Below, piece after piece: positions 6,340 through 19,154 of a stretch of 21,797 nt of DNA. The stretch covers positions 1 to 21,797 of IMG/VR virus record IMGVR_UViG_3300030117_005195, one strand, 5' to 3'. The notes under the pieces were generated by a model. The model ran no database searches, was not told where the DNA came from, and saw only the letters and a program-made list of their open reading frames with translations. This DNA comes from a virus. Made by a program: the position numbers and the translations under genes. The stretch's first letter is position 1; every line of letters starts with the position of its first letter.

Positions 6340-6357
6340 TACTTTCCTATTGCTACA

Positions 6358-6515
6358 TTGCAATTGCATAATAAATAAATATTATGCAATTGCTATATAT
6401 AGCTATAATAGCTATTATATATATATTATGAATATCAAATTGCAACTTATATTGCTTTCCCTTCTGTTTGCAACTGCAATTGCATATGCAATTGCAAGTA
6501 CAATTGCATTGCAAT
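6358..6515. repeat. TGCAATTGCA palindrome cluster; candidate origin or regulator-binding array
   Basis: The core TGCAATTGC(A) recurs about six times in 160 bases. Two large perfect palindromes stand out. One has arms GCAATTGCATAATA at 6360-6373 and its reverse complement at 6380-6393 around AATAAA. The other is a continuous 22-base palindrome at 6475-6496 built from two TGCAATTGCAT units head to head. Partial copies follow at 6501-6515. The stretch between is AT-only with TAGCTATAATAGCTAT repeats. Iterons and AT-rich unwinding sequence are typical of replication origins, but binding by a phage repressor is equally possible. Confidence 0.6.
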
Positions 6516-6567
6516 TAATGTATAATTAACTTGGGGGTAGGGAAAACGCTTTCATTTCTCCTTTTGT

Positions 6568-6597
6568 AAAGTAACAATATGTTCCTACCCCTGCCAA
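6568..6597 (-). promoter_or_regulatory. Candidate sigma70 promoter firing leftward toward terminase
   Basis: The minus strand reads TTGGCA at 6597-6592, an 18-base spacer, then TACTTT at 6573-6568, preceded by TG one base upstream (TGTTACTTT, an extended -10). A transcript would begin near 6560 and carry the palindrome cluster in a leader of about 235 bases. The hexamers match 5 of 6 and 4 of 6 consensus bases, so this is plausible but unproven. The site lies within a GGGGTAGG/CCTACCCC inverted repeat (6534-6541 and 6584-6591). Confidence 0.35.
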
Positions 6598-6639
6598 AGG
6601 GTTCTTTTTGTAAAAAAAATTCTGTCAAGGGTATCATCT

Positions 6640-6801
6640 ATTGTTTTCTTGTTGTTCTAAGCCATGCCCCGTTGTTAGTGTTTGTGTTGTTGTTTGTTGT
6701 TTTTGTTCTTGTTGTTGTTAATGTCTTTGTAGTTAGTGTTTGTTGTCTGTTATCTATTGTCTGTTGTCTACTGTCTGTTGTTAGTTGTTGTCTGTTGTTG
6801 G
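6640..6801. repeat. T/G-only strand-asymmetric tract with 14-bp tandem repeats
   Basis: For about 160 bases the plus strand is almost only T and G, with long TTG runs. Within it, near-identical 14-base units (consensus TRTTGTCTGTTRTC) start at 6741, 6755 and 6769, with a degenerate fourth at 6783. An 86-codon open frame passes through (6579-6839), but its product is a Val/Leu/Phe/Cys run generated by the repeat, so I do not call it a gene. If the minus strand is transcribed, the RNA here would be A/C-rich and unstructured. Confidence 0.75.
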
Positions 6802-6827
6802 TAGAGCAGCACACATATTATATTGCA

Positions 6828-6964
6828 CAGGTATATTGAGTCGCACTAGAGTCGCACTAAAGAGCCACTAAAGGAAAGAGCTACGCATATGCACACGTAT
6901 TTAGCACGAGCTACTGAAGGGGACTAGGAACGCACGTGTGCAGGTATATTGAGTTGCCCTAGAG
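6828..6964. repeat. 24-bp direct repeat pair
   Basis: CAGGTATATTGAG followed by T(C/T)GC(A/C)CTAGAG occurs at 6828-6851 and again at 6941-6964, identical at 22 of 24 positions. The second copy runs straight into a TACTGAAGG element at 6966, and GAGCTACTGAAGG occurs again at 6994. The region has no credible gene, so a duplicated regulatory module is the simplest reading. Confidence 0.65.
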
Positions 6965-7636: not shown

Positions 7637-7680
7637 TTGACAAAATATTTGAAAAAATGTTACTATATTCCCAACATTTT
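7637..7680 (+). promoter_or_regulatory. Early sigma70 promoter with an inverted repeat over the -10
   Basis: TTGACA at 7637-7642, an 18-base spacer and TACTAT at 7661-7666 form a good promoter, with TG one base upstream of the -10. The perfect inverted repeat AAAATGTT (7654-7661) / AACATTTT (7673-7680) brackets the -10 and the expected start near 7673, as an operator would. GAGG at 7695 and the first early ATG at 7704 follow. A TACTGAAGG copy ends six bases before the -35. Confidence 0.75.
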
Positions 7681-7703: not shown

Positions 7704-7937
7704 ATGTCCAACTACCGAAGGAAACCTCAGAACTTACTGAAGGGCTATAAAGCTGATCATCTAGGGTATCCTAGTGAGAGTAAAGCGATAGATGGCACTA
7801 AAGGAGGGACGAGATATTCCAAGATACAGAGATGGTCAGACAAGGTCTTATCTGAGAAGAGGTCTGTCCGAAAATATGAGAAGGATTCCCTTATACGTAA
7901 GGAGAAAGTGAGGGAGTTCCCTCAGCCAACCTTCTGA
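7704..7937 (+). CDS. First early gene: small basic hypothetical protein (77 aa)
   Basis: This 77-residue, strongly basic protein begins MSNYRRKPQNLLKGYKADHL and is rich in Lys, Arg and Ser. It has no cysteines, membrane segment or recognisable fold. The ATG has GAGG five bases upstream and lies about 30 bases after the predicted start of the promoter at 7637, so it is the first gene expressed from the rightward early unit. Early-position small basic proteins in phages often bind host factors or nucleic acid; nothing in this sequence identifies which. A TACTGAAGG element lies inside the coding region at 7735. Confidence 0.72.
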   Translation: MSNYRRKPQNLLKGYKADHLGYPSESKAIDGTKGGTRYSKIQRWSDKVLSEKRSVRKYEKDSLIRKEKVREFPQPTF

Positions 7938-7954
7938 CTAAAGTGAGCTAAATC

Positions 7955-8095
7955 ACTAAAGGCATAGCCTTTAGTACAGCGAAGGGTGTACGAGCATTTC
8001 CCTTAGCTGAAGGGTGTACGTGTATACGTACCGACTACCCTAACCAAGTGTCGACTAGGTAAATCGCATAGTGTCCTACTCTGCGACTTGCAGAG
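7955..8095 (+). other. Hairpin-rich untranslated gap between early genes
   Basis: The 195-base gap 7938-8132 holds several perfect inverted repeats: ACTAAAGGC/GCCTTTAGT (7955-7963 and 7967-7975, three-base loop), GTACGT/ACGTAC (8016-8021 and 8026-8031), and CTCTGC/GCAGAG (8079-8084 and 8090-8095). GAAGGGTGTACG is repeated at 7981 and 8009. No open frame with a ribosome-binding site uses the gap. It is probably a structured leader for the 8133 gene or a processing region; no known riboswitch is recognised. Confidence 0.5.
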
Positions 8096-8132
8096 ATCAA
8101 GCTATGCAAAGTTCCGAAGGAGGAACAACTGT

Positions 8133-8501
8133 ATGGTTACAAAAAATATTCGTGCCATTTCTTATGAGGGAAATACCCTTAAAACAACAATGCCTATCAC
8201 TTCTAGAGGGAAGAAGTCGAAAAACGGGAGGATTACAATTCATTCTAACCTAAACGGGTCTAATGATGTGCCTTCAGTAAGGACTTCAGTCGCTATCGAC
8301 AGCAAGTATGTCGAAGGGGCTGACCCGAACAGAGATTACTTCGTGATAGGAGGAGTCTACTCTATGCCGAAGAAAGAGCAGAAACCTAAAGCTAAAGTGA
8401 AGGCTAAAGGTAAAGCTAAGACTGAGGAAGTAGTGGACTTGAGTCAAGTGAAGTCAGCACTAGAGTTGCTGAGGAAAGCAGGAGTTCAGCTAGGTAGCTA
8501 A
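8133..8501 (+). CDS. Small hypothetical protein with Lys/Ala linker (122 aa)
   Basis: The start at 8133 is preferred to the in-frame ATG at 8088 because AGGAGG lies nine bases before it, whereas the longer form would translate through the hairpin at 8079-8095 and this SD. The N-terminal 70 residues look like a beta-rich domain (GRITIHSNLNG, then DYFVIGGVY). A low-complexity Lys/Ala linker follows (about residues 76-94, KAKVKAKGKAK). The end is a short helix (DLSQVKSALELLRKAGVQL). No known family is evident. A charged linker with a terminal helix suggests a nucleic-acid or protein-binding tail. An inverted TACTGAAGG lies inside at 8271. The gene is followed by a perfect hairpin and the hammerhead candidate. 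Confidence 0.75.
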   Translation: MVTKNIRAISYEGNTLKTTMPITSRGKKSKNGRITIHSNLNGSNDVPSVRTSVAIDSKYVEGADPNRDYFVIGGVYSMPKKEQKPKAKVKAKGKAKTEEVVDLSQVKSALELLRKAGVQLGS

Positions 8502-8523
8502 CTCCTCTCACAAATTATCCCGA

Positions 8524-8556
8524 ATCTCTCAGAGGATTTTGCGTCCTCTGAGAGAT
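8524..8556 (+). other. Perfect 13-bp hairpin after the 8133-8501 gene
   Basis: ATCTCTCAGAGGA (8524-8536) pairs perfectly with TCCTCTGAGAGAT (8544-8556) across a seven-base TTTTGCG loop. No T-run follows, so it is not a standard intrinsic terminator. It ends 15 bases before the predicted hammerhead cut, where it could protect the 3' end of the upstream cleavage product. Confidence 0.7.
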
Positions 8557-8565
8557 GTTCTCCTT

Positions 8566-8619
8566 ACTGTCTAAGAGTGTGTACTCTTACTGATGAAGGC
8601 TCAAAAGAGCCGAAACAGT
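8566..8619 (+). ncRNA. Candidate type III hammerhead ribozyme
   Basis: The elements of the hammerhead fold appear in order within 54 bases. Stem III 5' strand ACTGT is at 8566-8570, then C17 at 8571. Stem I is TAAGAGT/ACTCTTA (8572-8578 and 8583-8589) with a GTGT loop. The core CTGATGA is at 8590-8596. Stem II is GGCTC/GAGCC (8598-8602 and 8607-8611) with an AAAA loop. GAAA is at 8612-8615, and stem III is closed by ACAGT (8615-8619). All 17 stem pairs are Watson-Crick. The site reads GTC, and cleavage would fall between 8571 and 8572. The deviation is one extra A at 8597 between the core and stem II. It lies in a 149-base gene-free gap, 31 bases before the next ATG. Confidence 0.8.
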
Positions 8620-8650
8620 TTTACTAACCCTCAGTAAAGAGAGGTCAAAT

Positions 8651-8908
8651 ATGATGAGCAAAAGAATGAGAAAAAAATCTCAAACTCGTTGTAGAAAGCC
8701 CTTGTTTAAGTTTAATGGCAAAGTCATTAGATGTGGACAGTCTTGGGAAGGCAAACTTTACAAGACAGGACTTGAGTTCAAGTATAAGTCAACAAGGCAT
8801 TTTAGTAACCCAAATTACAAATCCCCGAAGGTACACTGTGATGAGTGTAAGAGCATACACAATGTGTTCAATGCCATTCAGTTTCCTAAGGGTACACAGG
8901 TTAGATAG
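8651..8908 (+). CDS. Small basic Cys-containing protein, possible zinc-binding (85 aa)
   Basis: This 85-residue basic protein starts MMSKRMRKKSQTRCRKPL, with GAGG six bases before the ATG; the context GAGGTC resembles that of the 7704 gene. Cysteines at about 14, 28, 63 and 66 (TRC, RCG and HCDEC) could form a zinc-binding site, though only the last pair is a clear C-x2-C knuckle. Its stop overlaps the GTG of the next gene by one base. It is the first gene after the hammerhead candidate, so the ribozyme would form the 5' end of its processed mRNA. The role is unknown; small zinc-knuckle early proteins usually bind nucleic acid or host proteins. Confidence 0.7.
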   Translation: MMSKRMRKKSQTRCRKPLFKFNGKVIRCGQSWEGKLYKTGLEFKYKSTRHFSNPNYKSPKVHCDECKSIHNVFNAIQFPKGTQVR

Positions 8909-9081
8909 TGCTGACACAAGAAGAGAGATCAGAGCTAGATTATGTGTGTAAATGTGGAGATAGTGGACATGACCACTTATCCACTAGGACAGGGGAAGCC
9001 CCTTATAGAGTAGGGAAATGCAAAAACTGTTACAGATGTGAACAGTTTGCATTAGGAGACGAAGGATTACTTGCTCAGTAG
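8908..9081 (+). CDS. Small zinc-knuckle protein with GTG start (57 aa)
   Basis: The frame starts with GTG at 8908, sharing a base with the TAG of the previous gene (TAGTG), with AGG seven bases upstream. The 57-residue product carries C-x-C-G-x4-H-x-H around residues 14-23 and GKCKNCYRCEQFA at 36-48, a dense set of six or so Cys/His ligands typical of small treble-clef or zinc-ribbon proteins. The tight one-base overlap and the ligand spacing make it a convincing gene although short. The RCEQFA segment recurs at DNA level near 9481-9500, upstream of another small zinc knuckle. Function unknown; probably nucleic-acid or protein binding. Confidence 0.68.
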   Translation: MLTQEERSELDYVCKCGDSGHDHLSTRTGEAPYRVGKCKNCYRCEQFALGDEGLLAQ

Positions 9082-9099
9082 AGCAAAAAAAATAAAATT

Positions 9100-9414
9100 A
9101 TGAAATTGTTAACAAAAGCAATTACTGAAGGCTTTGATAGACAAGGCAACACGGACGGGAAACCCGATAGTGAAAAAAAAGTTATAGCAAAATTTTTCCA
9201 CCCTCTAGGGTCTGCTACTTGGTATGCCATAGAGTATAACAAAGAGTGGAAGAAATTTTTAGCTTATGTTACAGGGTTAGGGTATGATGAGCTAGGAAAT
9301 GTTTCTCTTACTGAGTTAGAGAACACTATAGTTTTAGGACTTGGTGTTGAGAGAGATAAAGATTGGGACTCTAACACTACCCTAGAACAAGTGAAAACAG
9401 GAGAAGTGAGATAA
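9100..9414 (+). CDS. DUF2958-like protein (104 aa)
   Basis: The sequence matches what I recall of the DUF2958 family found in plasmids and phages. It opens MKLLTK, then has IAKFFHPLGSATWYAIEY at about residues 29-46 (family: KFF-P-G-W-TWY), FLAYVTGLGYDELGNVSLTEL at 53-73 (family: G-V-GL-ELG-FSL-EL), and GLGVERD at 80-86. Length is normal for the family (about 100-110 aa). The family has no established biochemical function. The ribosome-binding site is weak: the ATG follows an A-rich run. A TACTGAAGG copy at 9123 is inside the gene. Confidence 0.7.
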   Translation: MKLLTKAITEGFDRQGNTDGKPDSEKKVIAKFFHPLGSATWYAIEYNKEWKKFLAYVTGLGYDELGNVSLTELENTIVLGLGVERDKDWDSNTTLEQVKTGEVR

Positions 9415-9437
9415 ACTTCACTATACTGAAGGAAAAA

Positions 9438-9471
9438 CTCTTCGTCTTGGCAACCAAGCTGAGACGAAGAG
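9438..9471 (+). other. 10-bp perfect hairpin between small genes
   Basis: CTCTTCGTCT (9438-9447) pairs with AGACGAAGAG (9462-9471), and TGG/CCA can extend the stem inward with an asymmetric bulge. It begins six bases after a TACTGAAGG element (9424-9432). No T-run follows. It may be an mRNA stability or processing element, or it may be part of the reading frame that ends at 9602. Confidence 0.55.
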
Positions 9472-9515
9472 ATAACCATAGATGTGAGCAATTTGCATTC
9501 AGACCAAAAACAGAC

Positions 9516-9602
9516 ATGGAAAAAAAACTTTTTGGCAAATTTTACATGTGTATGTTATGTGGCAAAAAAGTGAACAGTATACATCATTGGTGTAAGAGAT
9601 GA
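9516..9602 (+). CDS. Very small zinc-knuckle protein (28 aa from the ATG, possibly longer)
   Basis: From ATG 9516 the frame encodes 28 residues with FYMCMLCGKKVNSIHHWCKR, a C-x2-C ... H-H-x-C knuckle. Its TGA overlaps the ATG of the next gene (ATGA at 9599-9602), supporting real, coupled translation. The frame stays open upstream to at least 9420 and includes HRCEQFAF, the same segment as in the 8908-9081 protein. The true start may therefore be upstream, for example TTG at 9447, but no start has a good ribosome-binding site. It is either a short zinc protein or the 3' remnant of a duplicated copy of the 8908 gene. Confidence 0.45.
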   Translation: MEKKLFGKFYMCMLCGKKVNSIHHWCKR

Positions 9603-9796
9603 GTAACCACGAATGGAATAGGCAACCTGTGAGGACACAGCTTGTTCATCTCTATAAAGACGAAGTGGATAGTGAATTATGGCATAGCATAATGCGAAAA
9701 CTTAAATGCGAAGGCAGAAATCCAATTTGTGATACTGACCTAATCGGGTTAGAGTTAAAAGTCATAGCTCATGAACATTTTGAAATTGACGAATAA
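9599..9796 (+). CDS. Small hypothetical protein (65 aa)
   Basis: This 65-residue acidic protein begins MSNHEWNRQPVRTQLVHLYK. The start overlaps the preceding stop as ATGA and has no strong SD of its own, so it depends on translation of the frame ending at 9602. A central helix-like stretch (DSELWHSIMRKLKCEGRN) precedes a Glu/His-rich end. No motif identifies a family. The next gene starts 12 bases after its stop with its own AAGGAG. Confidence 0.62.
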   Translation: MSNHEWNRQPVRTQLVHLYKDEVDSELWHSIMRKLKCEGRNPICDTDLIGLELKVIAHEHFEIDE

Positions 9797-9808
9797 ACAA
9801 GGAGAAAA

Positions 9809-10195
9809 ATGGCAATAAATTACGACTCTTGCGAACTGCGAATAGATGGAGAACTCAAGAGAATAATAACAGGGATTAAAAGTTTAAGAAAAAATTTAAC
9901 TTTCGAGTCTGATTACAACGAGGAAGATAATGAATACATTTCAGTATTAAGTACTGATTATGTTCCTTCTAACACTTTTAATGACCAAGATGAAGGGTAT
10001 TATCGTATACAATTCTCATGGGGAGGCCCGAGTGATGAACTGAGAGTATACTTTAACAAAAACAGATATACTAAGATAGAATATTGGTTTTTAGATTGGT
10101 TTGACGGGGCATCTCGTGAAGTCACTACTGACGAAGATATTTTATGGTATGTAGATCTGTACAACTTTGACAAAACAATAAACAAAAAGGAATAA
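9809..10195 (+). CDS. Hypothetical phage protein with YYRIQFSWGGPSDELR and DWFDGA segments (128 aa)
   Basis: This 128-residue acidic protein is preceded by AAGGAG. The second half has two conspicuous segments: GYYRIQFSWGGPSDELRVYF around residues 63-82 and KIEYWFLDWFDGASREV around 88-104. Beta-strand/turn patterns with a Gly-Gly-Pro turn followed by an aromatic DWFDGA resemble short conserved phage and plasmid proteins I have seen as uncharacterised. I cannot name a domain. TAA is immediately followed by the ATG of the next gene, in a SD-stop-start arrangement (AAGGAATAAATG) that recurs through this operon. Confidence 0.7.
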   Translation: MAINYDSCELRIDGELKRIITGIKSLRKNLTFESDYNEEDNEYISVLSTDYVPSNTFNDQDEGYYRIQFSWGGPSDELRVYFNKNRYTKIEYWFLDWFDGASREVTTDEDILWYVDLYNFDKTINKKE

Positions 10196-10591
10196 ATGAA
10201 TACAAGAGACTTCAATCACATTAAATGGCATACCAAGTTAATAACAGGACAACTCTTCGGAGTTTCTGAAAACAAACAAGGGCAAAAAACTTTATATGTC
10301 ATGCCAATAAGTAGAGATAAAAAGTTTAATCTTAACGAGATAGGCGAAGTAGATTTGTCAAGAAATAATCTTGACGAACTTAGCCCTTCAGAGTTAGACG
10401 AAATTAACAAAGCTTTTGGCACTAGGTTTGGACAATGTTACGAATACGTTGCCCCTAAAATAAAAACAAATTTAGAGGATACTGTAAGCATTAACTTTGC
10501 CATTCTTGACGAAACAATAAGTGAAACAAATATTTATCTTGAGAAAATTGCTAATGCATTATTGCGAATTGCAATAGCTAAGGAGAAATAA
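10196..10591 (+). CDS. Hypothetical protein (131 aa)
   Basis: This 131-residue protein begins MNTRDFNHIKWHTKLITGQL. The N-terminal half looks beta-rich (GQKTLYVMPISRDKKF), followed by an acidic middle (SRNNLDELSPSELDEINKAF). A C-terminal amphipathic helix (NIYLEKIANALLRIAIAKEK) could mediate self-association. There are no catalytic or metal motifs. Its last codons (KEK) contain the AAGGAG of the next gene. Function unknown. Confidence 0.68.
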   Translation: MNTRDFNHIKWHTKLITGQLFGVSENKQGQKTLYVMPISRDKKFNLNEIGEVDLSRNNLDELSPSELDEINKAFGTRFGQCYEYVAPKIKTNLEDTVSINFAILDETISETNIYLEKIANALLRIAIAKEK

Positions 10592-10876
10592 ATGACTAGT
10601 CATAGTTACGATTCAACCTGCCCTAAGTGTAACAAAAGCATGGATTCATGGTCAGAGAACAGACCATACGATATAGTAGAACATCAATGTTTTAATTGTG
10701 GATTTTACACAAGCACTAAAGAAGGAAGGTTGGATTTAGAAGAACTAAATGAAAATCGAAGAGAGTGCTACGAAAGATTCCCTTGTAAAAAACATGAAGA
10801 TAATTATGGAGAGTTTGATTGCAAGGATTGTGAAGAGAAAACTGTCTTAAAAGAATTACCAAAATGGCAGGGATAA
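10592..10876 (+). CDS. Double zinc-knuckle protein (94 aa)
   Basis: Two metal-binding groups are clear. The first has C10-x2-C13 and C33-x2-C36 (CPKC and CFNCGF), a zinc ribbon. The second has C65-x2-H68 and C77-x2-C80 (CKKH and CKDC). The spacing within each group (about 20 and 9 residues between half-sites) is normal for zinc ribbons and knuckles. It is acidic overall, so it is more likely a protein-interaction or regulatory zinc protein than a strong DNA binder. AAGGAG lies in the end of the preceding gene. The neighbouring genes at 8651, 8908 and 11069 also carry Cys knuckles. Confidence 0.72.
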   Translation: MTSHSYDSTCPKCNKSMDSWSENRPYDIVEHQCFNCGFYTSTKEGRLDLEELNENRRECYERFPCKKHEDNYGEFDCKDCEEKTVLKELPKWQG

Positions 10877-11068
10877 ATGATAGTAGTGTATTTTGAGAGT
10901 AGTGGTGGATACGCAGATGTTGTTGCTATGTTTGAAGACGAAGAGATGTATCATGCGTGTTCTCCTATCATAGACAAACTAGCAGAAAAAGGTAGGTTTA
11001 TGGTAACAGAGTCATGCGATATTCCCGATACTTTAAATAATTTATCAAGTAAAATTAAGGAGGAATGA
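10877..11068 (+). CDS. Small acidic hypothetical protein (63 aa)
   Basis: This 63-residue acidic protein starts directly after the previous stop (TAA then ATG) and has no strong SD of its own beyond AGGG in the preceding codons. It opens with a beta strand (MIVVYFESSGGYADVVAMF), then a helix (ACSPIIDKLAEKGRF), a second strand (MVTES) and an acidic end. The beta-alpha-beta order could be a mini ferredoxin-like fold, but no family is recognised. The final SKIKEE residues are encoded by the AAGGAGGAA that serves as the ribosome-binding site of the next gene. Confidence 0.62.
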   Translation: MIVVYFESSGGYADVVAMFEDEEMYHACSPIIDKLAEKGRFMVTESCDIPDTLNNLSSKIKEE

Positions 11069-11278
11069 ATGGAAGCACATATAGAATGTGATTCTTGTTA
11101 CGAATTAAGAGTAAAAAGAATCAAAGAAGAAAAGTTTTTAACACATTTTAAAGATGGTGTTGCAAGTGGTTTGATTGATGGGGTTTATAAAGATGAACTA
11201 TCAGATAATAAAACAAATGCTTATAAACAAGGCTATGATTTTGGTTTATGGTTACATTCGGAAATAAAGGAGGAATAA
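11069..11278 (+). CDS. Small hypothetical protein with one Cys pair (69 aa)
   Basis: This 69-residue protein begins MEAHIECDSCYELRVKRIKE. One C-x2-C pair at residues 7-10 is the only possible metal site, so a zinc fold would need dimerisation. The rest looks helical, with FKDGVASGLIDGVY and AYKQGYDFGLWLH. The latter type of pattern (YKQGYDFG) is common in short phage proteins. The start has AAGGAGG five bases upstream, and the gene ends SEIKEE, again dictated by the SD of the following gene. Confidence 0.62.
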   Translation: MEAHIECDSCYELRVKRIKEEKFLTHFKDGVASGLIDGVYKDELSDNKTNAYKQGYDFGLWLHSEIKEE

Positions 11279-11434
11279 ATGAGTGAAGAACTTATAAACA
11301 TAACAGATGTTGAAAATTGGTTAGGTCAAGACTATGAATATAGAGCTTTATCTACATTAGTAGACTTATTAAATGGAAGTTATCCATTAGAAAAATTCAA
11401 AGAAGATATTAAAAATTATAAAGAGGAGGAATGA
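11279..11434 (+). CDS. Small acidic hypothetical protein (51 aa)
   Basis: The ATG at 11279 follows AAGGAGGAATAA, the standard junction of this operon, and the frame closes at TGA 11432-11434 just before the next ATG. The product begins MSEELINITDVENWLGQDYE and is acidic and probably all-helical (LSTLVDLLNGS, then EKFKEDIKNYKEEE). It fills exactly the gap between its two neighbours, with proper ribosome-binding sites at both ends, which is the main support. No family recognised. Confidence 0.62.
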   Translation: MSEELINITDVENWLGQDYEYRALSTLVDLLNGSYPLEKFKEDIKNYKEEE

Positions 11435-11695
11435 ATGAGTGATATAGATGAGAAATATCCACCAATAAAATGCACTACTGAATGGGGAATTAAAGATGTT
11501 CATGCAGAAAGAGAACGTCAGAACATGAGTAAGTGGACAGACGATCAAGCATATGGATTTCTAGAATCAATTCATAGCCGATTAGGAGAATGGTGTGTAG
11601 AAAATGGGTGGGATATGCTAATGAATGTTTTGTGGGACGAAGAAGATGGATTTGAAAGAGATATGCGTAACAATGTTTTAGGAAACAAGGAGTAA
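11435..11695 (+). CDS. Small hypothetical protein with a VHAERERQ-x-KW segment (86 aa)
   Basis: This 86-residue acidic protein is preceded by GAGGAGGA. It contains DVHAERERQNMSKWTDDQAY around residues 21-40. That pattern (E-R-x-R-Q ... K-W ... D) resembles the N-terminal segment of MazG-like/DUF550 phage proteins, which are nucleotide pyrophosphohydrolase relatives. The metal-binding ExxE/ExxD helices expected of an active MazG fold are not evident and the protein is short, so the link is weak. The C-terminal half is Trp- and Asp-rich (ENGWDMLMNVLWDEEDGFER). Confidence 0.6.
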   Translation: MSDIDEKYPPIKCTTEWGIKDVHAERERQNMSKWTDDQAYGFLESIHSRLGEWCVENGWDMLMNVLWDEEDGFERDMRNNVLGNKE

Positions 11696-11699
11696 ATAA

Positions 11700-11993
11700 A
11701 TGAGTGAAGTTAAAAGAACTAAAGAAGAATTGTATTGGCATCAAAATGAAGATGGATTAATAGAGGTTACAATCCAACAACACTATACTAAAACAAAAGT
11801 AATACTAGCTGAGATAGATTGGGAAAGTTTCCATAATGCTCATGAAAATGGTATAGGATTTGTAGATGGAGATGATCTCAATATAGAAGTTGAAGGGTGG
11901 AATATCAATACTGTAAAAGTATTAAAAGAATACGAGGAAGGTTTTGAAAATGAATGTGGCAAATATTATTGTGGCGAAGACAGAATTGAATAA
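11700..11993 (+). CDS. Small acidic hypothetical protein (97 aa)
   Basis: The ATG lies after AAGGAGTAAATAA, five bases beyond the previous stop. The 97-residue product opens MSEVKRTKEELYWHQNEDGL and has a beta-rich centre (LIEVTIQQHYTKTKVILAEI). An acidic stretch follows with Trp and Asp (EIDWESFHNAHENG, then FVDGDDLNIEVEGW), ending with an acidic helix and C-G-K-Y-Y-C-G near the end. The fold could be a small beta barrel or DNA-mimic-like protein given its charge, but there is no direct evidence. It is the last gene before the internal promoter at 12021. Confidence 0.62.
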   Translation: MSEVKRTKEELYWHQNEDGLIEVTIQQHYTKTKVILAEIDWESFHNAHENGIGFVDGDDLNIEVEGWNINTVKVLKEYEEGFENECGKYYCGEDRIE

Positions 11994-12017
11994 GGAGGAA
12001 TGAATGATATAAGGTAA
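11992..12017 (+). pseudogene. Orphan ribosome-binding site and start with no gene behind it
   Basis: A full AAGGAGG plus AATGAATGA junction, as at true gene starts upstream, appears right after the stop at 11991-11993. The frame from its first ATG is only MNDIR followed by TAA, and the second ATG closes after two codons. The bases GGAGGAATGAATGA then (GT)GATATA resemble the start of the 11435 gene, so this may be the stump of a deleted copy. It may alternatively be a tiny leader or decoy ORF. Confidence 0.45.
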
Positions 12018-12020
12018 AAC

Positions 12021-12049
12021 TTGACTTCTTAGGTAACAAATGTTACAAT
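12021..12049 (+). promoter_or_regulatory. Internal sigma70 promoter with a palindromic operator
   Basis: TTGACT at 12021-12026, a 17-base spacer and TACAAT at 12044-12049 form a near-consensus promoter, with a TGn extension. The perfect palindrome GTAACAAATGTTAC (12033-12046) covers the spacer and the first half of the -10, a classic repressor position. It would drive the DUF932 and replication genes, with a leader of about 85 bases and AAAGGAG 12 bases before the ATG at 12142. Confidence 0.8.
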
Positions 12050-12141
12050 ATTTTATAAAGGGTAGATTAATATTTACTCTTACTTAACAGGTATAGTCCG
12101 ACACCACAAGTTCGGCATAACAAAAGGAGAAACATTAACAT

Positions 12142-13032
12142 ATGGACATTCAAATCGATCCATTTAATGCATACAGTCCTATTCAAAAGGAACCTTTATT
12201 TACAAGAGCTAAAGACCAATCAAGTCAGTGGTCAATACAGCTTCAGAAGTATAATAAAGATAATGTTCCTTATTGGGACGAAGTTGGTACAGTAGGAAAG
12301 GAATACCTTTTAGTACCAAACAGTGACGTCAATGAGTTGGCTTTAAATCTTATCGATAATTCTCGGTATGTGTGGGATAAAGATAAGTTATTCTTTGATG
12401 GACGAAGATACTTTCAATCTTTTACCACCAAAGATTTAACTAAAGAAGTTAAAGCAGGAGATGACATAGGATTAGGATTAGCTTTTCAAAACAGCTATGA
12501 CGGGTCTACTGCATTCTCTGTTAGTTTCTTTGCAATGAGATTAGTTTGCAAGAACGGAATGATTTCCAAAGAAAACTTACAAAGCTTTAGATTCAGACAT
12601 GATAAAAACATGGAAGGATTCCAAGATGAAGTGATGTCAGCCGTTGACTTTATTAACAACAGTGAAGTACCTTTAGAAAGATTTGTTTCGGGTCTTAGAA
12701 ACATGACTGAAGTTCCGTTTGATGTGAATACATTATACGAAATCAGAAAGATAACAGAAGACAAACAAAAAAAAGAACATAAACAAATACTAAAGCTTCC
12801 TGTTACTACATTTGGTAAATGTGTAGACAAATTCCTAGATGAGTATGACCCTCATTCATTTGCTCAAGGTCACACTAATCTATGGGACTTTTACAATGCC
12901 TGTACTAATGTACTATGGCACGAAAAGAAAATTACTAACGCACACTTTGTACAAAACTCTCAGATTACTGACAGTTTATTACAATACGCAAGTGAATATA
13001 CAGGCGAACAATTCTCTCCTGTAACAAACTAA
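12142..13032 (+). CDS. DUF932-like (phage/plasmid-type) protein (296 aa)
   Basis: The protein matches the general pattern of the DUF932 / phage-plasmid TIGR03299-like family. It has an N-terminal VPNSDVNELALNLID region, beta strands with GLGLAFQNSYDGSTAFSVSFFAMRLVCKNGM (Cys-Lys-Asn-Gly-Met at 136-140, the usual family hallmark) and FRFRHDKNMEG at about 149-159. Length (296) is near the family norm. The function is unestablished; genes of this family are common in phage and plasmid early regions near replication genes. It is the first gene behind the promoter at 12021, and the next gene begins two bases after its stop. Confidence 0.72.
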   Translation: MDIQIDPFNAYSPIQKEPLFTRAKDQSSQWSIQLQKYNKDNVPYWDEVGTVGKEYLLVPNSDVNELALNLIDNSRYVWDKDKLFFDGRRYFQSFTTKDLTKEVKAGDDIGLGLAFQNSYDGSTAFSVSFFAMRLVCKNGMISKENLQSFRFRHDKNMEGFQDEVMSAVDFINNSEVPLERFVSGLRNMTEVPFDVNTLYEIRKITEDKQKKEHKQILKLPVTTFGKCVDKFLDEYDPHSFAQGHTNLWDFYNACTNVLWHEKKITNAHFVQNSQITDSLLQYASEYTGEQFSPVTN

Positions 13033-13034
13033 AC

Positions 13035-13565
13035 ATGAAAGATAAAAATAAAATAGAACTTTTAAATGCCCTTCTGAAAGCAGGAGGGCATGACAGATCG
13101 ATTACGATCAAGAACCAAGACCCACACGTTGGTATAGGGTCTGTTACAGTACAAGTTGACCTAAGTTTTTCTCAAGGAATAGAGATAGATTTAGGAGATG
13201 TTTTTACTGACGGAATGTTTGCAGATTTTTTTGATAATGAAACTATGTATGAATTGTCAGGCAAAATTGCAAAGATTTTAGACAATGGAATTACAAACCC
13301 ACACCCAAAGTGGAAAGAACAAAAAATCAATGAAGAAATAAATGAAATGTATAAGAAAGTAGTTGATAATAATTCAGGTCAGATTTATGACATGGCATGG
13401 GAAGAGTTTTGGAATGATTATGTAGAAGGACACTCTACAAACGTAAGAGAGGAAGCTTCTATGGATTTCTATGACGAAAATTATGAACATGGTTTTCATA
13501 TAGAAGTTAATCCTGTAGCTAAAGCTCAATCAAAGATGGACGAAATAAAAGAGAGGAATAAATGA
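13035..13565 (+). CDS. Hypothetical protein (176 aa)
   Basis: This 176-residue acidic protein starts two bases after the DUF932 stop, probably by translational coupling since no clear SD precedes it. It shows a beta-rich N-terminal third (HVGIGSVTVQVDLSFSQGIEIDLG), an acidic middle (VFTDGMFADFFDNETMYEL) and a long helical C-terminus (EEINEMYKKVVDNN, then YDMAWEEFWNDYVEGH). No catalytic or metal motif is identifiable. Its TGA overlaps the next ATG (ATGA), linking it to the 195-residue protein. Confidence 0.68.
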   Translation: MKDKNKIELLNALLKAGGHDRSITIKNQDPHVGIGSVTVQVDLSFSQGIEIDLGDVFTDGMFADFFDNETMYELSGKIAKILDNGITNPHPKWKEQKINEEINEMYKKVVDNNSGQIYDMAWEEFWNDYVEGHSTNVREEASMDFYDENYEHGFHIEVNPVAKAQSKMDEIKERNK

Positions 13566-14149
13566 GTGAAGTCTTCTTACCTCACACAATTTTCTACTCT
13601 AACGTAGAGCATAAAGAAAGTAATCCTCAATGGAAGGAGACTACTTATCCATTGAGTGCCTTCATTAGCAAGGGATTGCTGAAGGGTACAGATACAATAC
13701 AAAGAAAAGACTTAAGACAGCCTAGTGAAATGTTAGAAAAGCTACCTGTTAACTCTATGGAAATTACTTGTCAAGATGCTTTTATGTATGCCCTTAAAAA
13801 CAGAATGTTTTCTATGGGGCAATTGACAAGAGTTAACTATGAAGTTAATTCAAAAGGTTTGCCTAGTCGCTTTAATGTAGAATATCCTAAAGGATCTTGT
13901 CCGGAGTTTATTCACTTGATAGGGAAACGAGACACTGTATTGTCAGGAGAAACTTGGTTGACCTTGCTTTCTACTTTCAATGACGACATGAGTTATGGAG
14001 ACCTTGCTTACATACCACATTATGTATTAACTTTTGCATTAAAGTATGGTCATTACACTCTAAGCCCTAATTCTCCTGTGATAGCTCCTTTACTAGAAGA
14101 TAAGACTGAAAGGAAAGGAACAGATTGGGATCAGTTACTAAATAACTAG
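13562..14149 (+). CDS. Hypothetical protein (195 aa)
   Basis: The start overlaps the previous stop by four bases and has GAGAGGA upstream, in the AGGAATAAATGAGTGAAG context seen at other gene starts here. The product has a helix-rich middle (CQDAFMYALKNRMFSMGQL) and an aromatic C-terminal region (YGDLAYIPHYVLTFALKYGHYTL). There are no conserved enzyme motifs I recognise, and no membrane segment beyond a mildly hydrophobic VLTFALKYG stretch. It is the last gene before a 40-base gap, so it probably ends the DUF932 cluster. Function unknown. Confidence 0.68.
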   Translation: MSEVFLPHTIFYSNVEHKESNPQWKETTYPLSAFISKGLLKGTDTIQRKDLRQPSEMLEKLPVNSMEITCQDAFMYALKNRMFSMGQLTRVNYEVNSKGLPSRFNVEYPKGSCPEFIHLIGKRDTVLSGETWLTLLSTFNDDMSYGDLAYIPHYVLTFALKYGHYTLSPNSPVIAPLLEDKTERKGTDWDQLLNN

Positions 14150-14189
14150 GGCTTGACAGCCATAGTACAATAGTAATAGGAGGAAATTT

Positions 14190-14627
14190 ATGCCTACAAA
14201 TGCAAAGAAAAAAACTAAGGGTGTTGGTAAAAAGCCAACACCTAAAGTTACTAAGAAGAAGCAAGTAGCTACTGTTAAAGAGGAGAGTCCTCCTTATATA
14301 ACAGGACAAGACTTGCCTAACACTAAGCTTAAGACCAAGCTATTAGTTGCTTCAGTTCTTACATTTATTAGTAATGTAGAAATAACTGATATGAAAATGC
14401 TAACTAAAATGCTTGTTGATAATGAGCTTTATGGAGACTTTGTTAAAGAAGTTAAAGAAGCTAAGACTGAATTAGGATTCACTTCTAAAGTAAAAAAATA
14501 CTTAAAGAAAATTCCTGTTGAATATCTTAGAAAAAACAAATTAACAAAGTTTAAAAGAGTAGATAAAGATTACATTCACGGACACTCGGAAGTGTACTTA
14601 GATGGCAATAGGTCTACTAACAATTAA
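14190..14627 (+). CDS. Lys-rich hypothetical protein (145 aa)
   Basis: This 145-residue protein is preceded by AGGAGG six bases before the ATG. Its first 35 residues are a Lys/Pro/Thr low-complexity tail (AKKKTKGVGKKPTPKVTKKK), like the charged tails of histone-like and nucleic-acid-binding proteins. The remaining part is helical (KLLVASVLTFISNVEITDMK, then LGFTSKVKKYLKKIPVEYLRK). It sits at the head of the replication/recombination block, so an accessory DNA-binding role is reasonable but unproven. Its last 26 bases overlap the next gene in another frame. Confidence 0.68.
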   Translation: MPTNAKKKTKGVGKKPTPKVTKKKQVATVKEESPPYITGQDLPNTKLKTKLLVASVLTFISNVEITDMKMLTKMLVDNELYGDFVKEVKEAKTELGFTSKVKKYLKKIPVEYLRKNKLTKFKRVDKDYIHGHSEVYLDGNRSTNN

Positions 14628-14880
14628 AGAACCTATTTGGAATGGTGTGAATAGCAACGAAAAGATCGGTGTAAGTACCCACCATTTCGATACGTTTGAC
14701 ACATTATGGATACAGATAGGGTATGAGAATCTACAGTTAGATCAACCATACCCTAGCACATACATAATGACTAAAGATTTCTTTAATAATTATTCTAAAC
14801 GTGATTGTATAACACATCATATAAAAGGAAGAGTTATTAAAGAGTTTAAAATAAAACATTTAAAATTAAAAGAGGTGTAA
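14602..14880 (+). CDS. Small hypothetical protein (92 aa)
   Basis: The gene starts inside the end of the preceding one, with GGAAGTG seven bases before the ATG. The 92-residue product is mostly beta-like and aromatic (FDTFDTLWIQIGYENLQLDQ), ending in a basic stretch (GRVIKEFKIKHLKLKEV). GAGG of the next gene's ribosome-binding site is in its last codons. There is no family call. The overlaps at both ends tie it to the putative ssDNA-binding gene and the nuclease as one translational unit. Confidence 0.65.
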   Translation: MAIGLLTIKEPIWNGVNSNEKIGVSTHHFDTFDTLWIQIGYENLQLDQPYPSTYIMTKDFFNNYSKRDCITHHIKGRVIKEFKIKHLKLKEV

Positions 14881-14884
14881 ACTG

Positions 14885-15511
14885 ATGAATAAGAAACCTT
14901 CATTCATTGCAAACACTCAAGAAGTTAAATCTTCAGTACCCGAATTGACGGGGACTCTAACTATCAAGTCTGTTGAACCGGTAGTTTCTTCTTGGGGAGC
15001 TGAACAAAATAAAATTATAGGAGATTGTTCTGAAATTGGACAATACCCTGTAACATTTTGGGTAGCTAGAGATAAACAAGCTAATCAAGGAGACGCAATT
15101 CCTTGTACGTTTAGAAGAAGAAGATTACAACAAGACCAAAGTGGAAATCTTAAAGCAGGATATTATCCTGACGGCAAGATGATTAATTGGGCATGGGATT
15201 GGGAGATAATAGATTGGAATGTTTCTAATGAAACACCTGTCCAACCTGTCCAACCTCAACCTCAACCTCAAGTAACGCCACCTGTTCAGCCTCAACCTCA
15301 GCCTGTTGTACAGCCTCAGCCACAACCTGTCGTACAACAAGAGGTGTCTCAAGAAATGTCAAGAGACATGGTAATTTCTAGAACAGCTATGTTAAAAAGC
15401 TTAATGGAAAACCATAGTAAACCTGTTGATACATGGGACAGAGATGACCTTGGTCAAGCCTTGGTAATGGTAGCCGAATTAGTAAATGTAATTTATGATG
15501 AGTGGAATTAA
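14885..15511 (+). CDS. Putative single-strand DNA-binding-like protein with a Pro/Gln linker (208 aa, tentative)
   Basis: Three parts are visible. Residues 1-115 are beta-rich with many aromatics (LTIKSVEPVVSSWGAEQNK, then QYPVTFWVARDK and MINWAWDWEIIDWN), compatible with an OB-type fold. About 118-155 is a Pro/Gln/Val low-complexity linker encoded by tandem CAACCT/CAGCCT units. About 160-208 is a helical tail (MVISRTAMLKSLMENHS, then LGQALVMVAELVNVIYDEWN). OB fold, flexible linker, then short tail is SSB architecture, but the classic acidic DDDIPF tip is absent. Position directly before a recombination nuclease and RepA-like ATPase supports DNA binding. The call is inference; a structural protein with a proline linker is the alternative. 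Confidence 0.5.
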   Translation: MNKKPSFIANTQEVKSSVPELTGTLTIKSVEPVVSSWGAEQNKIIGDCSEIGQYPVTFWVARDKQANQGDAIPCTFRRRRLQQDQSGNLKAGYYPDGKMINWAWDWEIIDWNVSNETPVQPVQPQPQPQVTPPVQPQPQPVVQPQPQPVVQQEVSQEMSRDMVISRTAMLKSLMENHSKPVDTWDRDDLGQALVMVAELVNVIYDEWN

Positions 15512-16344
15512 TGAAGACACTTATAAATAATACTCGTAAATTATTAGAACTTGCTCCTCCTTTAGAAGTTAAAGCTAAAGGAAGAGGGAGGGTTTATGTT
15601 GATGAACTTGGGAAACAGTACACTTCAGTAACTACAATCCTTAACGTCATTAACAAACCTGCCTTGATTCCATGGGCTAAGAAACAATCTCTAGAAAAAG
15701 TGAAGTATGTATTACAGAATCATGTAATGAACGGCACTTTACGTGAGATTAAAAACTCTGATGACATAGATGCAATCATAGATGAAGCTAGTAAAACTCC
15801 CGATCAAGTCTTGCAAACAGCAGGAGATTTCGGGAGTCATGCTCATGCACTAATTGAAAAGGTTATCAATGCTAGAATAAACAATGAAAAAGATCCTGTA
15901 ATTCCTATTGATTTCAAATTTGTTATGGAATCTTTTGAAATGTTTTGTGAACAATACAACCCTGTGTTTATAGGGAGTGAAGTACAAGTATGTTCTGATA
16001 GTATGTATTATGCATACGCAGGTACTGTAGATGCAGTTATTGTTCATGAAAACAATACTGTTGTTGTAGATTTTAAAACAAGTAAAGGAATTTATGACGA
16101 ACACAGGTTACAAGTAGGGGCATACAGCCATGCCTTACAAAGACTTAACAGAAAACATCTTAACTTAATAGGAGAACGAAGTCCTTTTGATATGGCATGG
16201 GTAGTTAAGTTAGGAAAAGAAAAGGCTGACGTAGAAATAGATAAAGTTATAACTCTTCCAAGTTATAGGGCTTTTGAAAATGCTACAAAACTTTATTACA
16301 AGTTAAAGGAGAAGATGTGGTTAGAGAAGAACCTTTATCTTTAG
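15511..16344 (+). CDS. PD-(D/E)XK nuclease of the RecB/Cas4-like phage exonuclease type (277 aa)
   Basis: The protein carries the family motifs in order (numbering from ATG 15511). These are YTSVTTIL (37-44), WAKKQ (55-59), GDFGSHAHALIEK (105-117; the usual G-x-x-x-H signature), E157, GTVDAV (171-176; D174), DFKTSK (187-192; D187, K189) and LQVGAYSHAL (200-209; Q201). That is a complete active site, so it should be a metal-dependent DNA nuclease acting in phage recombination or genome processing. The start at 15511 (TAATG overlap) is preferred; GTG 15502 gives three extra residues. The end overlaps the next gene by 28 bases. Length is normal. Confidence 0.85.
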   Translation: MKTLINNTRKLLELAPPLEVKAKGRGRVYVDELGKQYTSVTTILNVINKPALIPWAKKQSLEKVKYVLQNHVMNGTLREIKNSDDIDAIIDEASKTPDQVLQTAGDFGSHAHALIEKVINARINNEKDPVIPIDFKFVMESFEMFCEQYNPVFIGSEVQVCSDSMYYAYAGTVDAVIVHENNTVVVDFKTSKGIYDEHRLQVGAYSHALQRLNRKHLNLIGERSPFDMAWVVKLGKEKADVEIDKVITLPSYRAFENATKLYYKLKEKMWLEKNLYL

Positions 16345-16652
16345 ACACTTTAACATACGAACAAATAGCTCAGATAGAAAAGAATCTATCTGAGCCATGG
16401 GTACAAAAAACTTATACATTTAATGAGATGATAGTAAGATTGTTGTGCCAATCGTTAAGACAGAATCGTTACTTAGCTGACATGATAGGTAGTGCTGACA
16501 TGAGATCACGTTTAGCTTTTGGTAATGCATTAGAGTCTAAAGAAAAAATGGAAAAGTTAGTAGAGAGAAACAAAAAGAACTTTGAATTTCTCATTAACAA
16601 ACCTAAGAAAAAAGAAAATGGAAATGGAAAACAAAAAGGAATTTCTGTATGA
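16317..16652 (+). CDS. Hypothetical helical protein with GTG start (111 aa)
   Basis: Translation starts at GTG 16317, with AAGGAG five bases upstream; this is a better context than any internal ATG. The 111-residue product is helical and charged (YEQIAQIEKNLSEPWVQK, then MIVRLLCQSLRQNRYLADM) and ends in a Lys-rich, probably disordered tail (NKPKKKENGNGKQKG). It is nested between the nuclease, which it overlaps by 28 bases, and the RepA-like ATPase, which it overlaps by ATGA. An adaptor for one of those two is plausible. No family is recognised. Confidence 0.68.
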   Translation: MVREEPLSLDTLTYEQIAQIEKNLSEPWVQKTYTFNEMIVRLLCQSLRQNRYLADMIGSADMRSRLAFGNALESKEKMEKLVERNKKNFEFLINKPKKKENGNGKQKGISV

Positions 16653-17971
16653 GTGATTACACTTTTGAAGAAATAGGGGGGAGTTATACTCTCAATTGGC
16701 AGAAGGATAGTATCAAAGCTATTGTTGATAGGATATCAAATAAAAATGATAGCACTACAGCTATAGTTAGATGGTTTCGTACTGATGAAGGAGAGTTGTT
16801 ATTACATTCCTCAAGATTAAACTTTCATAGTGCCTCCGGTAAGAAAGGATTGTCTAGTATTCTAGATAAAACGGCTGAGATGTATGACGCACAGCCTATT
16901 CATTCTCATTGGTCCACTATGATTGAACAGCTCACGTATAAAGTAGATGAGCATATGATGAGAGGAGAACCCTCTGTCATAGTAGGGAACCTTGATGTAC
17001 AAGAAGTTTACCCTTACACTTTTTATCCTTTCATAAGAAAAGGAAGACCGAACATATTGTTTGGTCAAGGAGGGTCAAGCAAGTCATACTTTGCTATCCT
17101 CATGGCACTTATGTTAAGTAACAGGGGGTACAACGAGGTAAGTCCTGTTAAACCTTTTGCCTCAGAGTATTTGTGTGGACACTGTCCTCCCGAGGTAACA
17201 GATTGCCAAGCTTTAGATCATGATTCAAGTGTGATATATCTTGATTGGGAAAGCAACAAGTATGACTTTGACAAAAGAGTTAAAGCTGTCGCTAAAGGAA
17301 TAGGATTACCTAACCCTAAGCTAAGATACAAATCACTATCAAAGACTTTTAAAAATTCTATACCCGAAATAATAGCTGAGATAAGTGAGCATAAAATTAA
17401 AACAATTATTGTTGACAGTGCAGCCAAGTCTGTAGGGGGAGCATTTAATGATGCTGAATCAGTACAGGTTTTGTTTGAAGAAATCAGAAAGTTGAAAGTC
17501 GAAAACTCTTTAATCATAGATCACATTGCTAAAGGAGGAGTCGATCCTATAGGGAGTGTTCTTAAAATAAATGATGCCGGAAATATATGGCAGATAAATA
17601 AGAGCCAAGAACAAGGGGCTAACAATATGACAGTTGCGTTTCATCATAGAAAAAACAACGAGGGTATGTTAGAGAATCCTATAGGTATGACACTTTCATT
17701 TGAGGTAAGTGATTTTAAAAATACAAACAGCGTTAGGTTCAAAGAGACATCTGTTGACGCAGACCCTTCGTTAGGTAAGGAGTTGTCTAATAAACAAAAG
17801 ATATTAAACTTGCTTAAAACTTACGAGCCTATGAGTGTAGAAGTTATCGTTAAAGAGTTGGGTGTTTCTAAAGAAATAATTGCTCCCGAATTATCTAGAC
17901 TTAAAGCACAAAATAAAATAGATAAGTTTGTTCAACAAGATGGAACAAGTAAGTATGGGGTTAAAGCTTGA
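16649..17971 (+). CDS. RepA/AAA_25-like ATPase (RecA-fold replication helicase family) with a C-terminal winged helix (440 aa)
   Basis: This is probably the phage replication ATPase. A RecA-type core is visible: Walker A GQGGSSKS at 139-146 after RPNILF, a VIYLDWE strand at 195-201, Walker B KTIIVDS at 251-257, then LIIDHIAKGG (288-297) and a basic HHRKNN segment (332-337). A C-rich insert (CGHCPPEVTDC, 176-186) interrupts the core. The last 65 residues look like a winged helix-turn-helix (KQKILNLLKTYEPMSVEVIVKE). The canonical Gly before the Walker Lys is Ser here. It overlaps the upstream gene by ATGA and ends the continuous block before an AT-rich gap. RepA-type helicases load at origins; a RecA-fold recombinase is the alternative. 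Confidence 0.82.
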   Translation: MSDYTFEEIGGSYTLNWQKDSIKAIVDRISNKNDSTTAIVRWFRTDEGELLLHSSRLNFHSASGKKGLSSILDKTAEMYDAQPIHSHWSTMIEQLTYKVDEHMMRGEPSVIVGNLDVQEVYPYTFYPFIRKGRPNILFGQGGSSKSYFAILMALMLSNRGYNEVSPVKPFASEYLCGHCPPEVTDCQALDHDSSVIYLDWESNKYDFDKRVKAVAKGIGLPNPKLRYKSLSKTFKNSIPEIIAEISEHKIKTIIVDSAAKSVGGAFNDAESVQVLFEEIRKLKVENSLIIDHIAKGGVDPIGSVLKINDAGNIWQINKSQEQGANNMTVAFHHRKNNEGMLENPIGMTLSFEVSDFKNTNSVRFKETSVDADPSLGKELSNKQKILNLLKTYEPMSVEVIVKELGVSKEIIAPELSRLKAQNKIDKFVQQDGTSKYGVKA

Positions 17972-17984
17972 AAGGTTATTTATA

Positions 17985-18067
17985 TTTAGCTATTACAATA
18001 GCTATTATAATAGCTATTAATAATATTAACAATTGCTATTAATTGCAAAGCTATAATAGCTTTGCAA
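17985..18067. repeat. AT-rich repeat and perfect palindrome after the replication ATPase
   Basis: The 124-base gap 17972-18095 holds several TAGCTAT/AATAGCTAT units and a perfect 25-base palindrome at 18043-18067 (arm TTGCAAAGCTAT, single central A). The TAGCTATAATAGC units also occur near 6397-6412, beside the TGCAATTGCA cluster. There is no T-run after it. It could be a protein-binding or origin-like site, or an mRNA hairpin in the leader of the next gene. Confidence 0.6.
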
Positions 18068-18095
18068 TAAAGTAGCTATAGTTTAAAGGACTAAT

Positions 18096-19154
18096 ATGAA
18101 AAAAGATTATTACGAAAGAGAAGATGGTAAGATTTTAGCTTACAAAAAAAACAGAAAGCCTTTATTAAATCTTCCCACTACTAAAGCATTACAAGAATTT
18201 ATAGGAACAGTAATTAGAAAATCTTTACAAGCTGAAGGACCAAGGTATGTAAAGACACAAGGGTATGCCATATGGGGAAGTCTTGCTACAAGAGATGCTC
18301 TTGCTACAGGAGAATACATAGCTAAAGAAATGAAAGAAAGAAAAAGTATAAGATCTTATGGAGATTCTATGTGGGCTGACATAAGAAGTATAAAGTTAGA
18401 AAAGGTATATAGTAGACCTAGTCATCAAAAAAAATTAAACAAGATTCCAAGTGGGCATCAACAAATAGTAACCGGTATTATTAAAAATATAGGGGACACT
18501 CCTATAAGAAATATATTGGTAAAGTTTGAATTGATTAGTAGAAAAACAGGAAGAAGATCTGCAGTTGCTGTAGGTATGGTTAAACAAAGATCTGATTTTC
18601 AAAACTTTTTAAGAGTAAGAACAAAAGGATCAAAACCTCCAAAGTTTTTGCCTGAAAGTGAAGAAGTTAAACCTTTAATGCCAAACGAAAGTGTTGAATT
18701 TGTTGCAAGAACGCACAATTATGTGGACTTTGTATGGAAAGATGATAAGTATATAGACATGGCTATTCCTATGCATGAATCTGTGTCATACGAGAAGCTT
18801 GTGCGTGGTGGGGTAGGAGAAAATGGTAGATGGGTAAAGGTTGGGGGCTACAAGTATAAAACAAATGGGTATTTCTTTAGCATGATGAGTAAAAAAATAA
18901 GAGAATATTATTCAAAGAAAAAACAAAAAGCCTTACAAGAAAGAAGAGAGTTCTCTGTTATAAGACCTTTGGTTAAAAAATTAATAACAAAAAAATTAAA
19001 TGAATTAGAATCTGAAAACAAATTTGGAAATAAAAAAGTAACTATTTTAAAAAAGAAAATTAAAGACATTGCAATGAACAATGTTAAAAATAGTGTGGTA
19101 AAATTAAAAGATGACGAGAGAATATACGTTTACTATACAAGAGGTTCCTCCTAA
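18096..19154 (+). CDS. Unrecognised basic protein with a possible FxLYD-like beta domain (352 aa)
   Basis: Three parts can be described. Residues 1-115 are charged and mixed helical (KDYYEREDGKILAYKKNRKP, then ATRDALATGEYIAKEMKERK). About 125-210 is a beta-rich region whose pattern IVTGIIKNIGDTPIRNILVKF and NESVEFVART resembles the FxLYD/DUF3426-type small beta sandwich, which is weak evidence. About 260-352 is a very Lys-rich helical tail (REYYSKKKQKALQERREF and onwards). ATG 18096 follows AAAGGACTAAT. The gene overlaps the resolvase by 44 bases. It is placed with DNA-processing genes; a nucleic-acid-binding role fits the charge. Function unknown. Confidence 0.68.
   Translation: MKKDYYEREDGKILAYKKNRKPLLNLPTTKALQEFIGTVIRKSLQAEGPRYVKTQGYAIWGSLATRDALATGEYIAKEMKERKSIRSYGDSMWADIRSIKLEKVYSRPSHQKKLNKIPSGHQQIVTGIIKNIGDTPIRNILVKFELISRKTGRRSAVAVGMVKQRSDFQNFLRVRTKGSKPPKFLPESEEVKPLMPNESVEFVARTHNYVDFVWKDDKYIDMAIPMHESVSYEKLVRGGVGENGRWVKVGGYKYKTNGYFFSMMSKKIREYYSKKKQKALQERREFSVIRPLVKKLITKKLNELESENKFGNKKVTILKKKIKDIAMNNVKNSVVKLKDDERIYVYYTRGSS

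Follow-up and report, generated by a model that had tools for sequence, protein, structure and literature searches.

Analysis of a 21,797-nucleotide viral sequence (IMG/VR record IMGVR_UViG_3300030117_005195, positions 1 to 21,797; hereafter, the window) identified a complete type III hammerhead ribozyme between two protein-coding genes, where, judging from its sequence and setting, it quite probably acts as a self-cleaving intercistronic mRNA-processing site. The window ribozyme is one member of an extensive family, for the most part uncatalogued, of hammerheads that lie between phage genes and behind a putatively protective hairpin. The features of the region are listed below.

8133-8501, + strand: upstream gene, 122 aa, no known family; ATG probably at 8133; conserved beside the ribozyme in four phages at 44-69% identity
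8524-8556, + strand: 14-bp hairpin, ATCTCTCAGAGGAT-TTTGC-GTCCTCTGAGAGAT, just upstream of the ribozyme; pairing probability 0.84-1.0
8566-8619, + strand: complete type III hammerhead ribozyme, from sequence reading, Rfam match, descriptor scan and covariation
8566-8570, + strand: 5' strand of stem III, ACUGU, in which U8570 is U16.1; from sequence
8571, + strand: C17, with cleavage predicted between 8571 and 8572 by homology to the hammerhead core
8572-8589, + strand: stem I, TAAGAGT (8572-8578) with ACTCTTA (8583-8589); loop letters GTGT, loop 1 UGUGUA (8578-8583)
8590-8596, + strand: core CUGAUGA (C3-A9), N7 being U; from sequence
8597, + strand: extra A separating A9 from the first pair of stem II; from sequence
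8598-8611, + strand: stem II, 5 bp, GGCTC (8598-8602) with GAGCC (8607-8611); loop 2 AAAA
8612-8619, + strand: core GAA (G12-A14, 8612-8614) and 3' strand of stem III, ACAGU (8615-8619)
8640-8653, + strand: ribosome-binding site AGAGG (8640-8644) and ATG (8651-8653), with 79 nt of leader separating the ATG from the predicted cut
8651-8908, + strand: downstream gene, 85 aa, no known family; present in all four phages

Read in order, the element comprises ACTGT C / TAAGAGT GTGT ACTCTTA / CTGATGA A / GGCTC AAAA GAGCC / GAA ACAGT. All hammerhead core positions (C3 U4 G5 A6 N7 G8 A9, G12 A13 A14, A15.1-U16.1 and H17) are present, and of the three stems, I and II are capped and III is open, as type III requires. 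Re-reading the sequence reproduced base for base the hammerhead with 17 Watson-Crick pairs given in a preliminary description of the window, together with the single extra A between A9 and stem II. Because of A8597, stem II does not directly continue A9 as strict descriptors specify, a feature that not all active hammerheads share. The ribozyme occupies a 149-base gap that, as also claimed in that description, is free of genes and bounded by two same-strand genes, the upstream open reading frame ending at 8501 and the next starting with the ATG at 8651; the 14-bp hairpin was absent from the description. On its letters, RNA transcribed from 8566-8619 should cut itself in two.

This hammerhead is not due to chance. 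A type III descriptor yielded no matches in 2.18 Mb of Markov-1 random sequence and none in 1.28 Mb of reversed viral DNA, versus 126 in the same loci read forward, and Rfam family RF00008 matched the window ribozyme end to end at 33.8 bits (E 1.5e-7 over the record in E-value mode; E 5.9e-6 against all Rfam families in 201 nt). The preliminary description had held that a covariance score below threshold would speak against the ribozyme, and formally it does: no match is returned in the window at the RF00008 gathering score of 48.5 bits, although the match obtained is full-length and significant. The gathering score is a database cut-off, not a biological feature, and it is uninformative here, since none of 10 phage records with such ribozymes passes it and the PaP3-group (Bruynoghevirus) ribozyme of Pseudomonas phage DL54 scores only 32.2 bits, about the same as the window, while the PaP3 hammerhead is counted as one of the active ribozymes that vary in the core (PMC3088659). 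The active PaP3 ribozyme and the DL54 site are probably the same site. Because the Rfam cut-off misses them, phage genomes are under-annotated for this ribozyme group. In nearest-neighbour folding, stems I and II form with high probability and stem III with a probability of 0.03-0.37 (0.03 in long context), in an energy model that omits the tertiary contacts on which hammerheads depend and for a stem III of only 5 bp. The CUG of the core is able to pair with the CAG of stem III, and TTTACT...AGTAAA at 8620-8637, just 3' of the ribozyme, is a possible hairpin that would compete with stem III pairing.

Scanning viral contigs with the window's stem III motif, leaving the stems free, returned at least 119 contigs, most of them with full hammerheads; among the matches listed in this unanchored scan, the commonest loop pair was UGUGUG/CAAAAG. 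A second scan, in which both loops and the core were fixed and the insert, stems and cut site were free, found 73 contigs with 46 distinct sequences, 45 of which have all three stems. When these 45 distinct relatives are aligned without gaps, pairing holds in 99.6% of cells and 14 of the 17 pairs are changed on both sides (4 of 5 in stem III, 6 of 7 in stem I and 4 of 5 in stem II); the covariation score is 0.866, versus 0.275 after shuffling and no more than 0.158 with slid partners, in environmental contigs whose sequences are not independent. All three helices thus covary, as the preliminary description had proposed to check. H17 is C in 44 of the 45 relatives and A in one. The core letters are kept in all 45, the core being part of the search pattern, and they are also kept in two pattern-independent relatives (L128 and L129), which differ only at N7. 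Since both loops were fixed by the pattern, loop invariance in the anchored scans is not itself evidence. With a covariance model built from this gapless alignment, L128 and L129, neither of which is part of it, reach 69.8 and 65.0 bits; the 77.5 bits of the window follow by construction. Viral contigs (L020, L024, L026, L029, L081-L085 and others) also frequently carry another subclass, whose stem II element AGCGAAAGCA has 2 bp and a GAAA loop, with A-A next to the core.

Four phages have a common neighbourhood around the ribozyme: the window, a 47-kb contig (entered as L096, L123 and L156), L128 and L129. Hairpin and ribozyme are kept in all four. The hairpin stem is near-identical and its loop exchanged. 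In the ribozyme, stems I and II change in a compensatory way, stem I reading TGAGAGT/ACTCTCA in L096 and CGAGAAT/ATTCTCG in L128 and L129. The insert is A or U (U in L128 and L129) and N7 is U or G (U in the window, G in L128 and L129). Loss of the core with retention of the gap, which the preliminary description had set out as contrary evidence, was not seen in any of these four. The downstream 85-aa gene follows the ribozyme directly or after one small inserted gene (L123, L128). Neither flanking gene had a match in Pfam or PHROGs, the sole match to the downstream protein in viral contigs was the near-identical 47-kb relative, and a distant blastn search of the 151-nt region in cultured phages gave chance-level matches only. 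In the DNA examined from terminase relatives at 62-76% identity (L130-L155), neither flanking gene has a homologue, so these relatives are uninformative on ribozyme loss; among cultured phages, even the best terminase relatives stay below 27% identity. A promoter-like site lies upstream at 7637-7666, and a tRNA search found none. The early operon of the preliminary description is a reasonable assignment, because the + strand genes of 7704-19509 include an exonuclease, a RusA-like resolvase and an AAA ATPase and the terminase lies on the other strand, but it is drawn from gene content. Between two divergent gene blocks, positions 6350-6840 of the window hold low-complexity, repeat-like DNA, with short-period peptide repeats on both strands of the open reading frame list.

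The arrangement seen in the window recurs across 147 ribozyme loci from phage contigs, where the upstream stop is followed by a strong hairpin, the ribozyme, a spacer of 20-40 nt and then a ribosome site with ATG, and both in the window and at these loci the hammerhead lies between stop and SD/ATG on the strand of its flanking genes. The 45 nt upstream of the ribozyme fold with a median of -13.8 kcal/mol, versus -5.6 kcal/mol both for shuffles and for equally distant stretches ahead of other genes (Mann-Whitney p 2e-28, with controls that are not phylogenetically independent). The hairpin base is a median of 8 nt from the cut in 105 non-redundant loci, often abutting stem III; several relatives of the wider class are without a strong upstream hairpin. 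An open reading frame with SD and ATG begins within 80 nt downstream in 73% of loci, mostly at 20-40 nt, versus 13% at random positions and 5% in antisense. Loci with several ribozymes carry them all on one strand (29 of 29), with up to four per whole record. Sorted by sequence, the downstream genes fall into 75 clusters that share no function; the element is therefore tied to a position rather than to one gene.

The base between A9 and stem II follows a narrow rule. Among the 45 distinct full ribozymes, found with the insert left free, it is U in 36 and A in nine, and never C or G. A further loop-anchored scan, allowing all combinations of stem II and insert length, covered 101 distinct virus sequences: 54 have a 4-bp stem II, none of them with a junction insert, and all 43 with a fully paired 5-bp stem II have an insert, as do two with an imperfect top pair, no 5-bp stem II being found without one. 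Stem II length and insert are thus strictly coupled (Fisher p 1e-28, the sequences being related) in scans whose loop letters were preset by the pattern. The loops of the chrysanthemum chlorotic mottle viroid (CChMVd) (+) hammerhead, a viroid replication ribozyme and not part of an mRNA, differ from those of the window. In it, too, A9 and G10.1 are separated by an additional A (De la Pena and Flores, 2001, via PMC3705267); this natural A10 is tolerated, with U10 three to four times faster and C or G harmful (PMC3705267). As read from phage sequences, the restriction to U or A matches these published kinetics, and together they indicate that A8597 is a tolerated natural variant; as the CChMVd (+) ribozyme has the same insertion and cleaves, A8597 marks a variant and not an exclusion from RF00008.

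The same UGUGUR/AAAA type III class is common in genomes of Patescibacteria/CPR, including Saccharibacteria, Nomurabacteria, Parcubacteria and others (L209-L307). In this set, 116 full hammerheads occur in 85 of 101 loci (the 101 include phage records L308 and L309), and single genomes yield as many as nine matches. Of 112 ribozymes of the set, 38 are followed within 22 nt by a boxA-like antitermination motif (GTTCTTTGA, GATCTTTGA), versus a background of 1.5%, with examples just 3' of the ribozyme in L222, L236, L270, L293 and L298; many boxA-like loci also have upstream hairpins, and L222 has an integrase. Some Patescibacteria chromosomes have single hammerheads just before a TATAAT-like promoter (L218 at 5070, L229 at 6284, L263 at 2581), as if these formed the 3' end of the upstream transcript. 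No paper joining hammerheads with Patescibacteria or Saccharibacteria was found among the open-licence papers searched. The cultured Tetrasphaera phage TJE1 carries an unannotated hammerhead of the window's class, with 5 bp and U (L309 from 2476 onwards; NC_019930.1 at about 12324-12379), on the strand opposite to the genes annotated there.

Several known systems resemble the window in part. The satellite RNA sTRSV hammerhead is also type III, with a UGUG-containing loop 1, a stem I of about 6 bp and a 4-bp stem II; it differs in its GUGA loop 2, in having no extra nucleotide and in belonging to a circular RNA satellite. The RNase III sites of T7-like phages are intercistronic cuts leaving hairpin-protected ends, but they are protein-dependent and not homologous, and the likeness is one of mode of working only. 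The DL54 ribozyme (L308, 691-745) shares with the window the type III fold, loop 2 AAAA and a hairpin just upstream, and has loop 1 UGUGUG; unlike the window, it has A17 at the cut site, no extra nucleotide, a stem II of three pairs with a U-U at its base and a stem III that overlaps the start codon. A similar setting is that of the phage and prophage arrays of Perreault et al. (2011), whose hammerheads, type III among them, sit on the coding strand in the gaps separating phage genes and have been proposed to process mRNA by cutting long transcripts into gene-length mRNAs; cleavage of prophage clusters was demonstrated both in vitro and inside E. coli (PMC3088659). Unlike in the window, no adjoining 3' hairpin is described for these arrays in the text consulted. 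Candidates mispaired at 10.1-11.1 beside the core were rejected in that search unless activity was measurable (PMC3088659), so that the extra-nucleotide class was largely filtered out.

At the window site, we infer cleavage, loop docking and mRNA stabilisation as follows. Transcription from upstream would pass the gene at 8133-8501, then the 14-bp hairpin and then the ribozyme, which would fold, dock its UGUGUA and AAAA loops and cut after C8571. A8597 would compensate geometrically for the fifth stem II pair, probably offsetting its rotation and rise so that the loops still dock. The upstream mRNA would end in the 14-bp hairpin, its proposed 3'-end cap, plus a 15-nt single-stranded tail with a 2',3'-cyclic phosphate, and the downstream mRNA would begin, 79 nt ahead of its ATG, with a 5'-OH followed by the stem I hairpin. 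Exonucleases that degrade bacterial mRNA are slowed by hairpins close to the 3' end, and a 5'-OH escapes monophosphate-stimulated RNase E. By this general knowledge of RNA decay, the upstream product would be shielded from 3' exonucleases and the downstream product from 5'-monophosphate-dependent decay. The separate gene units would then be translated and decay independently, as at the RNase III sites of T7 early mRNA, without a protein. With one ribozyme in the window record, one cut only is expected.

The predicted hairpin-capped 3' end and 5'-OH leader make processing with end protection the most likely role, and other readings were weighed against it. An active hammerhead that mainly controls the downstream gene, with an anti-SD-like stretch at about 8502-8509 pairing the SD until cutting or refolding releases it, is unlikely: a 156-nt fold does pair CUCCUC with GAGAGG at the SD, and the upstream hairpins of relatives are asymmetric, with purine/G-rich 5' arms (325 G versus 144 in 3' arms) and pyrimidine-rich, anti-SD-like 3' arms, but in the window the pairing is short, its letters are not kept in L128 and L129, the downstream genes are unrelated and no ligand-binding domain is visible. 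There is a small probability that the hairpin is instead a partial transcription terminator, the hammerhead trimming read-through or terminated transcripts. A consensus scan does list 8524-8556 as terminator-like; the tail after it, GTTCTCCTTACTG, has no T run, the hairpin of relatives usually abuts stem III, and a terminator-like tail of five or more T in 8 nt follows only 11 of 77 hairpins.

The element is very improbable as an inactive remnant, or as a structured DNA or RNA site merely resembling a hammerhead. Its extra A would fail the strict 2011 descriptor and its score is below the Rfam cut-off, yet core letters are kept in 45 distinct relatives whose stems covary, the insert is confined to U or A, and random controls gave zero matches. 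It is hardly credible as one end of a circular or excised, retrozyme- or viroid-like RNA, even though hammerheads of type III are characteristic of plant retrozymes and of RNA agents that are circular (PMC7761336). Where such agents have two hammerheads bounding a repeated unit, the window and the 47-kb relative have a single copy each, flanked by protein genes, and circular or spliced products of prophage arrays, which Perreault et al. looked for, went undetected (PMC3088659). A ligand-controlled riboswitch was also set aside, no aptamer being visible.

Processing with end protection bears on the role of prokaryotic and phage hammerheads, which has been called an open question (PMC6155905; PMC10085705). 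What our analysis adds to prior work is the pairing of hairpin with ribozyme and the rule for the insert, neither of which was found stated earlier in the open-licence papers searched. It is an evenly balanced proposition that the hairpin-hammerhead pair is a widespread, RNA-only phage punctuation cassette, with a 3'-protective hairpin upstream and a 5'-OH hairpin downstream replacing RNase III or a terminator, and that one branch of it, with a 5-bp stem II and an obligatory U or A insert, uses an alternative loop-docking geometry. The insert rule (5 bp with U or A, 4 bp with none) constitutes a natural experiment on hammerhead geometry, and the recurrence of the hairpin, ribozyme and SD-ATG layout over many unrelated genes offers a specific, testable answer to what these ribozymes may do in phages: mRNA processing with end protection.
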